This document shows positions 40,404-44,364 of a DNA stretch of 64,000 bases, in pieces. Each line of letters begins with the position of its first letter. The stretch's first letter is position 1. The stretch spans positions 930,001-994,000 of the forward strand of contig NZ_LSYT01000001.1 in NCBI RefSeq assembly GCF_001602525.1. The letters run 5' to 3'. The notes below the pieces were generated by a model. The model had not been told where the DNA came from. It was given only the letters and a program-made list of their open reading frames with translations, and did not search any database. Position numbers and translations under genes: made by a program. Source of the DNA: Flavobacterium chilense. Its GTDB lineage: Bacteria; Bacteroidota; Bacteroidia; Flavobacteriales; Flavobacteriaceae.

Positions 40404-40479
40404 CAGGAGCTATTTCCTGCTGTCCTTCCAATCTTTTGTGCCGAACCCCGGCACAAAAGGATTTTCCCTCCCATCAGGG
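40404..40479. repeat. Three-hairpin palindromic element
   Basis: Three stems in a row: CAGGA/TCCTG (40404-40419, loop GCTATT), a central perfect 11-base stem CTTTTGTGCCG/CGGCACAAAAG (40433-40459, loop AACCC), and CCCT/AGGG (40466-40479), followed by GCTAGGA. The layout GAGCTATTTCC..TGTCC - palindrome - GGATTTT..GGGCTAGG resembles a dispersed repeat I recall from Flavobacterium genomes, though copies cannot be counted here. No T-run follows, so it is not a simple terminator. Confidence 0.65.
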
Positions 40480-40533
40480 CTAGGATATTCGGTTTCATAA
40501 GAAAGTTATTATAAAAAGAATAATGGATTTTGC

Positions 40534-40541
40534 TATATTTG
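40534..40541 (+). promoter_or_regulatory. Candidate -7 box upstream of a structured RNA
   Basis: TATATTTG matches the Bacteroidota TAnnTTTG consensus exactly. No good -33 TTG lies 17-23 bases upstream. It would place the transcript start near 40548, at the first AAACTACGAC repeat and ~35 bases ahead of the structured RNA. Confidence 0.45.
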
Positions 40542-40546
40542 CGGCT

Positions 40547-40686
40547 CTTAAACTACGACCTTAAGAACGAAATAAGATTTGCCCTTGTATTATGTGTGCG
40601 GTATCGGAAACGACCGTAGGCGCTGTCGTAGGCGTTAGAAACGCTAAGATACAGGGGTTTTTATATTCTCAAACTACGACATTATG
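40547..40686 (+). repeat. Direct repeats flanking the structured RNA
   Basis: CTTAAACTACGACCTTAAG (40547-40565) recurs as CTCAAACTACGACATTATG (40668-40686), 121 bases apart, with 16 of 19 bases the same. The second copy ends in the start codon of the 77-aa gene. The first is also a small hairpin (CTTAA/TTAAG). The pair brackets the RNA element precisely. Confidence 0.65.
40582..40662 (+). ncRNA. Candidate structured RNA (riboswitch- or attenuator-like), class unknown
   Basis: CCCTTGTAT (40582-40590) pairs with ATACAGGGG (40649-40657) over 9 bases (one wobble), closing a multiloop with at least two hairpins: CGG..TCG-GAAA-CGACCG (40599-40616, GNRA tetraloop) and GCGTT-AGA-AACGC (40632-40644). 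CGTAGGCG repeats at 40615-40622 and 40627-40634. TTTTT follows directly (40658-40662). The compact fold, T-run, upstream -7 box and a gene 22 bases later resemble a cis-regulatory RNA. It does not match tRNA or any riboswitch class I can recall. Pairing was done by eye. Confidence 0.5.
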
Positions 40687-40687
40687 A
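40592..40687 (+). CDS. Possible 31-residue leader peptide
   Basis: ATG at 40592 lies inside the first loop of the RNA element and the frame runs through it to TGA at 40685-40687, overlapping the ATG of the next gene as ATGA. Translation begins MCAVSETTVGAVVGVRNAKI. The ATGA junction is typical of coupled translation, but the composition is set by the RNA stems, so the frame may be accidental. Confidence 0.3.
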   Translation: MCAVSETTVGAVVGVRNAKIQGFLYSQTTTL

Positions 40688-40917
40688 GTACAAACACCCT
40701 TTCGAAAGAAGCCGAAACCAGGCTGATGAATTTTTTTAATCATACCATCGATCCACAAGGTATGGCAAAAGCAATAAGACAAGCAAATTACATACTTGCC
40801 CTTGGACTTATGAGAGAACACGAAACGTTTCAAAACGAAAGAGCCAGCCTCGAAAACAGTTTTTACTGGCTCAACGAATTAGCCGAAATTTTAAATCCTT
40901 ATTTGGGTGTAGAGTAA
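40684..40917 (+). CDS. Hypothetical protein, 77 aa, downstream of the structured RNA
   Basis: A small helical cytoplasmic protein (MSTNTLSKEAETRLMNFFNH.. AIRQANYILALGLMREHETF.. SFYWLNELAEILNPYLGVE). No family recognised, no signal or membrane segment. Its start codon is embedded in the second AAACTACGAC repeat, and a strong terminator follows at 40960, so RNA element and gene look like one monocistronic unit. Function unknown. Confidence 0.65.
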   Translation: MSTNTLSKEAETRLMNFFNHTIDPQGMAKAIRQANYILALGLMREHETFQNERASLENSFYWLNELAEILNPYLGVE

Positions 40918-41183: not shown

Positions 41184-43055
41184 ATGGCAAAACCGGATAA
41201 TACTTTAAAACGAAAAATGCGTGAAGAAAAAGAAAACGCCGAAGATGGTTTAAAATTTGTTATCGATGGGGCCAAAATCAGGTGCGATTTATGTACCGTT
41301 CCAGATGGAGACCTAAAAGCAAATTTTGATACCCCAAGCATACAAGACAAACGTGTTGTTACAGTCGTAGAAAAAGATATGACAAGTCTGATCTTTAAAG
41401 GCAATTGCAAAAAAAGCCCTTACAGTTCCAGCCCATGTGCCTCGGTAATGAAACTTACCGATTGGAAAGATCCCGGAACTGTATATTTTCAGGATCAGTT
41501 ACCTGTACTTTTAAGAAGCACCATAAAATGCGAATACGGAAGTATTGATATCAAAATTACAGATTGCGGACAACGAAATTTAATTACAGATATTGATACT
41601 ATTGGTGCGCCTGTGCCTAGTGTAATAGAAAAAACGGATGCGGATTTTATAGTTCAATTTAGGCATTTGGATTCTTATAATGGAGAGTTTGGCTTCGATT
41701 GGATGAGAGATGAATATTTAGAAGGAATTTGTATTGATGGTCTTGAGGATTTAAAAAAATTATATTCAAATATTGACGGTTCTCCTTTTAAAATAAACAG
41801 TGAAGATTATTATATTCCTTGGTTAAGTTTATTTAAAGAACATAGAAGTAAAACTGGTGTAGATGTAAGGTTAAAACTATCTGTAACACTAAAAAAAGGA
41901 GATCTGGATGACACTGATATAATTCGGCTAGAACCACCAATTGGGATTAAAATTATTCCAAATACTCTAAATGCAAAAGAAGCAAATGATACAGAAATTT
42001 TAATCACATGTAATCAAGATTTAAATAGTGATGTTGCTATTGAAGCATTTAACAAAAATAATCAAACAATAGGAAAATTAAACATCATAAAAAATTCAGT
42101 TAAATATAATTTACCAATAAAATTCATAATTGTGGATGAAGCTGACACATCAAAAAGTTATTATTCTAAAGTATTTGATGCGTTTGATGATCCTTTTTTT
42201 TCTGATTTAAAAAAGACTCTTAGTAGTAACTCTCTTAATCAAGCTTTAATAAATCCAGTTTTTGTCGATAAATCTGTAGCCGAAATAGAATTTTTAAAAA
42301 TCGATTTTGAAGATTTTAAAAACAGAAAATTAATTGACATACCTGAAGGAATGAAACAACCTAGATTTCCAGAAGATAATAATTTATTAAAAGATGAATT
42401 AATTAAATTAGCAAAGGAAAAGAATAAAAATTTTAAAGGAATTTTCGTTTTCATGACTGTTTTCCATCAAAAAGGAAAAGAATCAGGTTTTTCCTGGACC
42501 TATCCTCGAAATAATCAGGCAGTTATTATAGGAACTAGAGGAGTAAATTCAAAAATTACCTATTTGCATGAGATTGGTCACTGTTTAGGTCTTGAGCATG
42601 TATTTACGGAGAAAAACAAAAATAATGCAAATATATTGAATCTTGAAAGCAATATTAAAATTAACGAAAATAACATAAAGGTTTTTGAAAAAAACATAAA
42701 AGATAAAGAAGATTTTTTAAAGCAGTTTAAGAATAAATCAGCATCCGAAATAATAAAATTTAAGGATGGTACAAAGAAAAGTGTAGGTGAAATACAAAAA
42801 GAACAGCAAGAAGCAATCAATGACCAGAAACAAAAAATCGAAAATGAAAATATAGAATTAAATACCAATATATGTGATTTAGAAGATTTTCAAAGATTAA
42901 TAAATTTGTGTGTGTTCGAACGTGGTACTACCGATAATATCATGGATTATGATTCTAAAAAAGATGAAGAAAGTCCTAATAAAAATAATTTAATATCATT
43001 TTTTAAATGGCATTGGGACTTGATGCAAGAAGAGACTATCAAATATTATAACTAA
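41184..43055 (+). CDS. DUF4280 PAAR-like protein with C-terminal metzincin protease: candidate contact-dependent effector
   Basis: A 623-residue protein without signal peptide. Residues ~22-130 match DUF4280, a PAAR-like spike-tip domain, with Cys pairs (IRCDLC 34/37; GNCKKS 75; SSPCAS 85; IKCEYG 116). A beta-rich middle (150-330) follows. The C-terminal domain holds HEIGHCLGLEH (462-472), the metzincin HExxHxxGxxH zinc site, and the Met-turn DNIMDYD (Met587); between them lies a charged coiled-coil insert (~478-575). Spike-plus-enzyme architecture is that of a type VI secretion cargo effector that cleaves proteins in a target. Two exported genes follow at 6 and 1 bases, as immunity genes do. 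Delivery system and target are inferred; no T6SS structural genes lie in the window. Confidence 0.8.
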   Translation: MAKPDNTLKRKMREEKENAEDGLKFVIDGAKIRCDLCTVPDGDLKANFDTPSIQDKRVVTVVEKDMTSLIFKGNCKKSPYSSSPCASVMKLTDWKDPGTVYFQDQLPVLLRSTIKCEYGSIDIKITDCGQRNLITDIDTIGAPVPSVIEKTDADFIVQFRHLDSYNGEFGFDWMRDEYLEGICIDGLEDLKKLYSNIDGSPFKINSEDYYIPWLSLFKEHRSKTGVDVRLKLSVTLKKGDLDDTDIIRLEPPIGIKIIPNTLNAKEANDTEILITCNQDLNSDVAIEAFNKNNQTIGKLNIIKNSVKYNLPIKFIIVDEADTSKSYYSKVFDAFDDPFFSDLKKTLSSNSLNQALINPVFVDKSVAEIEFLKIDFEDFKNRKLIDIPEGMKQPRFPEDNNLLKDELIKLAKEKNKNFKGIFVFMTVFHQKGKESGFSWTYPRNNQAVIIGTRGVNSKITYLHEIGHCLGLEHVFTEKNKNNANILNLESNIKINENNIKVFEKNIKDKEDFLKQFKNKSASEIIKFKDGTKKSVGEIQKEQQEAINDQKQKIENENIELNTNICDLEDFQRLINLCVFERGTTDNIMDYDSKKDEESPNKNNLISFFKWHWDLMQEETIKYYN

Positions 43056-43061
43056 GAAATC

Positions 43062-43622
43062 ATGAAATATAACTTTACTTTATATTTTTTACTGTGTGCT
43101 AGTAGCATACATATATTTGCTCAAATGAAAAATTATTCTGTTTTTGATAAAGATGATTTTGATAAAATGGGCATTCCCAAAAACCTTAATGGACAAGTAA
43201 TATATCAAGGATATGTTAAAGGAATTGGTTATGTTGCTAATCAGATAGCAGAATATAAAAATGGGAAAAAACACGGGCATTTTATTTATTTTAATAAGGG
43301 AGAATTTGTAGGTGAAGAATATTATGTCAATGGTATTCGTAATGGATATTTTTCACTTGGAGAATGGTCAGGATTTTATAAAAACGGAAGAAAAGATGGA
43401 ATATGGAAACATTCGAGTGATACTGGAGATTCCGAAATTATTACATACAAAAAAGGAGAAAAACATGGCTATTATGAATATAAATATGCCATAATTAAAA
43501 TTATAGGAAGATATAAAGATGATAAAAAAGATGGTCAGTGGATTACTTATAATGAAAAAGGAGAGATATTAAATAAATCATTTTTTAAGAAAGGAGTTGA
43601 AATCAATATAGAAAAGAAATAA
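43062..43622 (+). CDS. Exported YwqK/MORN-repeat protein, candidate immunity protein
   Basis: A 186-residue protein with a signal ending ..IFAQ and five to six MORN/YwqK-type repeats (YKNGKKHGHFIYFNKGE, FYKNGRKDGIW, YKKGEKHGYYEY, YKDDKKDGQWITYNEKG). Such beta-hairpin repeat proteins are frequent antitoxins or immunity proteins in polymorphic-toxin loci. Begins 6 bases after the metzincin effector; periplasmic location would fit protection against a protease delivered there. Role inferred. Confidence 0.75.
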   Translation: MKYNFTLYFLLCASSIHIFAQMKNYSVFDKDDFDKMGIPKNLNGQVIYQGYVKGIGYVANQIAEYKNGKKHGHFIYFNKGEFVGEEYYVNGIRNGYFSLGEWSGFYKNGRKDGIWKHSSDTGDSEIITYKKGEKHGYYEYKYAIIKIIGRYKDDKKDGQWITYNEKGEILNKSFFKKGVEINIEKK

Positions 43623-43623
43623 A

Positions 43624-44364
43624 ATGAAAAAACTTTTTTTTATAGCAATTCTGTTCATTTTTTATAATTGCAATGCTCAAATAAAGAAAGAAAATAAGCC
43701 AATTGTAAAAGTAGTAATACCTATACGAAATAAACAAGCTTGTGGTAATGACAATAATATTTCCCTCAAAAAAAGAGATTATTGGCGAGCCAATAATTAT
43801 TATGATGAAAAACAAAGCTATTATAATTTGAGCACTGCTAAAAATATCTTAACCGTAAAAAAAGAATATTCTATTAAAAATGGATTTCTTTTTTTTAATA
43901 ATAAGTTAGTTGATAGCCTTGAAATATATTTTGGAGCATGTAATGGCGTTTTTTATAATGTTGGTATTTTAAAAGGCCTACCAGTAAGTCAAAATATTAT
44001 TATTGCCAATAATCCCTATCCAAGTATGTATGGTATTCAATATACCCCAAATGAAACTATTTTTACATTTTTAGATTACAATAGTACACTTATAAACGGA
44101 ACAGGTAATTTAAAGAAATATTATTACAGTAAATGGGATGGCAAAACTCAGAATTATTCAAAAGAAATTTTAAAAGAAGAAGGCGAGGTTAAAAATAATT
44201 TTAAGCTTGGTGAATGGAAGTATTACAATAAAAATGGCGTAATCGACAGTACAAAAACATACACATTAAAAGATTCGGTAGATGTTCGCTTTCCACATTG
44301 TATTTTCAATAAAAAAGAACCTTGTTATTCTGAAAATAAAAGTAGTAATGCCTATACGAAATAA
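43624..44364 (+). CDS. Second exported MORN-like protein, 3' end altered by a duplication
   Basis: A 246-residue protein with a signal ending ..NCNAQ. The middle is unrecognised; near the end GEVKNNFKLGEWKYYNKNGVIDS is a MORN/YwqK unit like those of its neighbour. The start is 1 base after the preceding stop, so they are one operon. The last seven codons lie in a copy of the gene's own 5' region (43710-43790 repeated at 44341-44421) read one base out of frame, so the C-terminus was probably reset by recombination. Possible second immunity or accessory protein. Confidence 0.7.
   Translation: MKKLFFIAILFIFYNCNAQIKKENKPIVKVVIPIRNKQACGNDNNISLKKRDYWRANNYYDEKQSYYNLSTAKNILTVKKEYSIKNGFLFFNNKLVDSLEIYFGACNGVFYNVGILKGLPVSQNIIIANNPYPSMYGIQYTPNETIFTFLDYNSTLINGTGNLKKYYYSKWDGKTQNYSKEILKEEGEVKNNFKLGEWKYYNKNGVIDSTKTYTLKDSVDVRFPHCIFNKKEPCYSENKSSNAYTK

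Follow-up and report, generated by a model that had tools for sequence, protein, structure and literature searches.

A segment of the Flavobacterium chilense genome, at positions 40534-40917 of the window (the whole 64,000-nt stretch analyzed here: assembly GCF_001602525.1, contig NZ_LSYT01000001.1, positions 930,001 to 994,000, forward strand), is very probably a C4-type antisense cassette, in which a structured RNA would block translation of an adjacent 77-codon gene. The RNA itself belongs to an already catalogued family, c4-2, and, judging by its sequence and those of its relatives, it appears to be the chromosomal relative of an antisense switch found in phages. The features of the cassette are given in Table 1.

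Table 1. Features of the c4-2 cassette, with positions in the window
Feature	Position	Strand	Basis
Bacteroidota-type -7 promoter box TAnnTTTG (TATATTTG)	40534-40541	+	sequence and recurrence in relatives
Putative upstream target mimic (a1/b1-like), AAACTACGAC, with core CTACGAC at 40553-40559	40550-40559	+	exact complement of the loop
c4-2 RNA	40581-40660	+	RF02944 match and stem covariation
Antisense seed GTCGTAG, loop of the second hairpin	40625-40631	+	sequence and duplex tests
Second antisense element UUAGAA (a'-like), mostly single-stranded	40635-40640	+	matched classes over relatives
Putative target (a2/b2-like), TTCT followed by AAACTACGAC	40666-40680	+	exact 7-8 nt complement of the seed
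Probable target gene, 77 codons, small helical protein (predicted)	40684-40917	+	no family match; purifying selection

When the whole window was searched, the covariance model of c4-2 (RF02944) was matched over its full length (63.5 bits, where the cut-off is 41; model positions 1-79 of 79; E 8.6e-12), and c4-2 and Flavo-1 were the only families to reach gathering score in the Rfam scan. No riboswitch reached gathering score in that scan, and no tRNA or tmRNA was found in the window. The initial annotation had recognized no known class with this layout and had itself named an Rfam hit as an observation that would count against its proposal, and this match is such a hit; its alternative suggestion of a small RNA in its own right is upheld. 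Rfam types the family simply as sRNA. The structural elements that it described are all in place, namely a closing stem of nine pairs, to which one G-U end pair can be added (40581-40590 with 40649-40658), a GNRA hairpin capped by GAAA (40598-40617), a second hairpin (40619-40636), and a T5 run (40658-40662). The predicted fold has an energy of -31.2 kcal/mol (z -3.4), with 2 of 200 shuffles being equally good. Moreover, in an alignment (A3) of 70 of the 89 distinct c4-2 cores scoring at least 59 bits, with the window copy (L003) as first row, the 25 pairs of the stems were kept in 97.8% of cells, a value reached by none of 500 shuffles, and 20 of the 25 had changed on both sides, so that the compensatory changes sought in relatives were indeed found. 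Sliding the partner positions abolished this signal. A further alignment (A1) comprised the window and 43 of 79 loci, and RF02944 is listed in a table of R-scape-improved families in the available excerpt of PMC11701678.

While the scaffold of the RNA is conserved, the loop of its second hairpin is not, and it is this loop that ties the RNA to its surroundings. The near-identical repeats previously seen to bracket the RNA are two occurrences of AAACTACGAC, at 40550-40559 and 40671-40680, one on each side of c4-2, and both contain the exact complement of the loop, CTACGAC (the downstream copy at 40674-40680). The upstream copy lies near the putative transcription start, where phage P1 has its putative a1/b1 sites, and the downstream copy ends three bases 5' of the ATG (40684) of the 77-codon gene. 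The same relationship recurs across relatives, with a seed match of at least 7 nt being present in 88 of 108 upstream flanks and 74 of 108 downstream flanks, versus 10% and 8% of non-cognate pairings, respectively, and 43 different seed strings were seen in 87 loci. Duplex energies were compared using one locus per distinct antisense segment (93 segments, from the 124 loci with a gene among 132). In these 93 non-redundant loci, the mean energy with the RNA's own upstream site was -18.0 kcal/mol, versus -11.4 for strangers, while that with its own downstream site was -15.0 kcal/mol, versus -10.3; neither own-flank mean was reached in any of 10,000 re-pairings, in permutations that ignore kinship. 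A locus's own flank is seldom the single best partner (20 of 93 loci upstream and 16 of 93 downstream, with a median of four others being better) because seeds recur between loci; for the window copy, two upstream and ten downstream flanks of other loci outscore its own. Since the loop is complementary to the start of the gene and the two change together, c4-2 most likely blocks the gene's translation.

The second antisense element behaves similarly, if less cleanly. In the window it is imperfect, with five of six positions pairing with 40666-40671 and fewer pairing upstream, as judged by eye. Among relatives, 74 of the 90 RNAs with UAGGA as second element have UCCUA upstream, and 10 of the 11 with UAAGA have UCUUA upstream. 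Downstream agreement is weaker: where a UAGGA locus is followed by a gene (84 loci), UCCUA is present in 48. In a second subfamily of 19 loci, the RNA is instead set against the initiation codon of the gene and the codons after it (ATGCAAAA, ATGACTAAA, ATGACAAAA, ATGCTAAAA, and ATGCAAACA), and on average 7.5 of 8 positions are paired with a locus's own gene versus 5.7 for other classes, a difference seen in none of 10,000 permutations. Two members of this subfamily, L029 and L030, sit in phage-like stretches; an RT-17 RNA (RF03020, 40.6 bits against a cut-off of 40.4) occurs at L030 144-226, upstream of the prophage c4-2.

In the mechanism envisaged here, one transcript would start near 40548, ~7 bases downstream of the promoter box, and would carry first the target mimic, then c4-2, and after it the true target and the 77-codon gene. 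The folded RNA would present a seed of 7-8 nt and a short second element, both of which would pair with the target just 5' of the ATG and thereby exclude ribosomes. As in P1, c4-2 may be cut free to act in trans on other copies of the transcript. The upstream mimic would give the transcript a further site for pairing with the RNA, a role that is putative in P1 too. The idea that the mimic generally masks the seed found no support, as nested folds placed the mimic on the seed at more than 0.5 in only 4 of 45 loci, with the window at 0.52. The target was likewise placed on the seed at more than 0.5 in only 5 of 45, a result that counts against the mechanism. Use of the promoter is suggested by the perfect TAnnTTTG box, which had been pointed out at 40534-40541 (TATATTTG) and proves to be a recurrent feature, being present in 67 of 108 upstream flanks versus 4.9 expected from shuffles.

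Clan CL00128 groups c4-2 with C4 (RF01695) and c4-a1b1 (RF03163), and phage P1 contains both of the latter. According to the available excerpts of two papers, C4 blocks translation of ant and is the basis of P1/P7 heteroimmunity (PMC12197685), and the C4 RNA of P1/P7 is processed by RNase P and represses translation (PMC5320573). In the P1 record, the order is promoter P1c4, putative a1 and b1, C4, a2, b2, icd, and ant1; a1 and a2 are both TTGACAG and have their complement within C4, as does b2 (GTTAGTGA), from which b1 differs by one letter. The window resembles this arrangement in its sequence of promoter, upstream sites, RNA, downstream sites, and small gene, and the RNAs share a tetraloop hairpin, a hairpin with an antisense loop, and then a second antisense element. 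An upstream a1/b1-like copy and elements complementary to the start region, the second imperfectly so, are features of C4-type systems found in the window. There are also clear differences. The window RNA scores as c4-2 and not as C4, the C4 model having no gathering match in the window, where overlapping clan members were reduced to the best one. An upstream copy of the target sites is shared with c4-a1b1, yet that model gives no match in the window. The key is the hairpin loop, whereas the specificity element of C4 is, in the excerpt of PMC5320573, the a' loop. Furthermore, the gene behind the window's c4-2 is unrelated to icd by eye, no ant follows it in the window, and control of an antirepressor operon was not found there, the gene having no match in Pfam, NCBIfam, or PHROGs. 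Compared with c4-2 as catalogued, the window copy is full-length, has the same fold, and differs in nothing structural; what is added here is a target and a set of keys. Finally, the Group 1 C4-like sRNAs of A. baumannii, as described in the excerpt of PMC5320573, are likewise numerous per chromosome and differ in their specificity loop, but their targets are left open there, whereas each c4-2 matches the gene behind it.

The F. chilense genome has three copies of c4-2, and the other two follow the same rule, with loop CTTAACG matching its own repeats CGTTAAG (L001) and loop CTTGCA matching TGCAAG (L002). In a survey of the genus, c4-2 was matched in 28 of 150 genomes (26 above the cut-off), at 108 places in total and with up to eight copies per genome. 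Searches of the family and the phylum matched 10 of 397 and 11 of 395 genomes, respectively, the organism's own genome included in each, and added 24 loci, matches to which no locus was assigned being disregarded. Keys within one genome tend to differ, with a 6-mer being shared by 2 of 93 pairs within a genome versus 234 of 3648 between genomes, a tendency that is only suggestive, as 272 of 5000 permutations were as low. Some copies are truncated, and extra copies with no gene directly behind them (L009 1871-1947, L020 1501-1580, and L039 1201-1277) lie near a complete cassette, possibly as decayed copies or free-standing regulators. The idea that the sequence is a transposon end found no support, as no neighboring gene family is shared by more than 23 of 82 loci and the 77-aa protein has no relative in phage, plasmid, or viral-contig collections at the thresholds used. 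Two further inspections of neighboring genes covered 12 and 9 loci.

Several relatives of the RNA are found in phages or beside antirepressor genes. Genome G146 has a sub-threshold c4-2 match (28.8 bits) immediately upstream of a Bro-N gene (Pfam 3.8e-25; PHROGs anti-repressor Ant 1.4e-40), in the same stretch as a Mu-type portal gene. Five viral contigs encoding the closest relatives of this Bro-N protein were scanned (L228-L232), and sub-threshold c4-2 matches were found directly upstream of the Bro-N relative in L228 (28.2 bits, E 0.07) and L229 (33.5 bits, E 0.002), where the start regions of the genes match the RNA; no c4-2 match was found upstream of the Bro-N relatives in L230-L232. An antirepressor gene stands behind the weak c4-2 relatives in L030, L228, and L229, and elsewhere a KilA-N gene is nearby (L219) or there are tape-measure matches (L221 and L222). 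Two cultured F. psychrophilum phages, 6H and 23T, possess c4-2 above the cut-off (49.4 bits), with key TTTAGTCA facing a ATGACTAAA start; the 23T sequence reads N at the position of the ORF behind the site. Phages 2A and FPSV-F7 gave no c4-2 match up to E 1; by eye they have a like layout but are keyed by TTTTTGCA, which faces ATGCAAAAA, and the ATG targeted in 2A opens an annotated gene of 103 aa.

Given these phages, it is conceivable, although doubtful, that the c4-2 cassettes on chromosomes form a domesticated RNA immunity system with multiple keys, which would also silence C4-controlled genes of incoming temperate phages sharing a key. The key of 6H and 23T is shared with loci L090, L092, and L093, whose neighbors are non-phage-looking, and 2A and FPSV-F7 are keyed differently from 6H and 23T, much as P1 differs from P7; the suggestive divergence of keys within a genome would also fit. 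However, common ancestry may be all that lies behind shared keys, and the site in 6H is followed by an ORF of only 34 codons, which is not annotated.

The 77-codon gene has 223 relatives among genome contigs, of which 80 (79 loci) were kept, the loci being from Flavobacterium or from records named as close kin; no relative was found in phage, plasmid, or viral-contig collections at the thresholds used. The gene is under purifying selection, with a median dN/dS of about 0.18, a rough value given a median dS of 1.05, near saturation (67 gapless genes, from which 1368 pairs remained once those with dS undefined or at least 1.5 had been dropped). The structure model of its 77-aa product shows three helices at modest confidence (pTM 0.34), and homology with a 91-aa family is not claimed (hhalign probability 12%). 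By nucleotide profile, c4-2 lies upstream in 63 of the 79 loci, with seed matches of at least 6 nt on both sides in 49 of the 63. When the other 16 were examined by eye, L152 had an intact c4-2, ten had a degenerate RNA but retained the promoter and 5' element, three (L161, L168, and L176) had no such RNA, and L156 and L159 had a divergent Cro/C1-type HTH gene in its place. The box and 5' element TCTTAAATCTTCACATT persist beside a degenerate c4-2 in L134, L137, L173, L207, L208, and L212, and the 5' element may therefore have a role of its own. A fourth copy of the 77-aa family in the F. chilense genome (L225 8201-8751, G000:C3), without c4-2, is divergent from an HTH_3 gene (6.1e-17) across the palindrome ATTACACCCATACATGGGTGTAAT, an arrangement like that in L156 and L159. 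That the gene would lie under either a phage-type RNA or a phage-type repressor suggests a phage-regulatory origin for the family, and by analogy one can guess that the protein acts as ant or icd does.

This gene also invites a rather unlikely reading as a toxin-antitoxin-like module, in which a harmful 77-aa protein would be held in check by c4-2 as its RNA antitoxin. Its position is that of P1 icd, annotated as an inhibitor of cell division, and genomes with several differently keyed copies, some of them truncated, would be in keeping with such a module, but relatives retain the gene where c4-2 has decayed or is absent, the fourth copy in this genome does without the RNA, and comparison by eye revealed no likeness to Icd. 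It is improbable, too, that c4-2 is a trans-acting sRNA with its main targets among other mRNAs and the adjacent gene being incidental, as proposed for the C4-like sRNAs of A. baumannii in the excerpt of PMC5320573; the few c4-2 copies with no gene behind them would agree with this, yet each seed varies together with the sequences flanking it at its locus, and the exact AAACTACGAC with an ATG within 9 bases occurs just twice in the genome, once here and once inside an unrelated CDS.

The initial annotation had also entertained a leader ORF, and a 31-codon frame that overlaps the ATG at 40684 is indeed present (40592-40687); its ending on the next start is not conserved. In the 102 loci where a gene lies downstream, the corresponding frame stops on the start of that gene in 4 cases, short of it in 73, and extends into the gene in 8; in the other 17 there is no ATG to open it. 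The ORF was accordingly rejected as a unit. Separately, in 52 of the 102 loci (L001, L002, and others) the 5' mimic is followed by an ATG, as is the true target, and this ATG opens a short frame running into c4-2. A ligand-binding riboswitch or leader-peptide attenuator, both of which had been offered on the strength of the compact multiloop and overlapping ORF, and to which the ATG between mimic and RNA might be added, is highly improbable given an Rfam family of another kind, a leader ORF that is not maintained, and a conserved scaffold whose loop varies between loci but stays complementary to its own flanks, which is antisense logic.

The neighborhood of the cassette deserves brief mention. 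A Flavo-1 RNA (RF01705, 62.3 bits) adjoins it at 40409-40485 on the minus strand, and with 88 matches in the F. chilense genome (79 above the cut-off), Flavo-1 is a highly repeated element. On the other side, at 41184-44364 (+), lies a gene with a DUF4280 domain and a weak match to a metzincin-type protease. Two small proteins are encoded next to it, of which the first has weak MORN-like repeats. We take the DUF4280 protein to be a candidate secreted effector, and its small neighbors may be immunity proteins.

No published account of key-target covariation or of multicopy cassettes was found in a literature search that did not extend to the likely first descriptions of c4-2 and C4; as far as that literature goes, key-to-target covariation and multicopy chromosomal cassettes are new, and no priority is claimed. 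An Rfam family typed merely as sRNA gains a likely target and mechanism, and mutually different antisense keys are seen to coexist on chromosomes. The 43 seed strings amount to a collection of natural compensatory mutants, from which it could be learned how few base pairs decide RNA-RNA specificity. The cassettes also point to an undescribed family of small proteins under purifying selection, and would tie the chromosomes of Flavobacterium to the immunity logic of phage P1.
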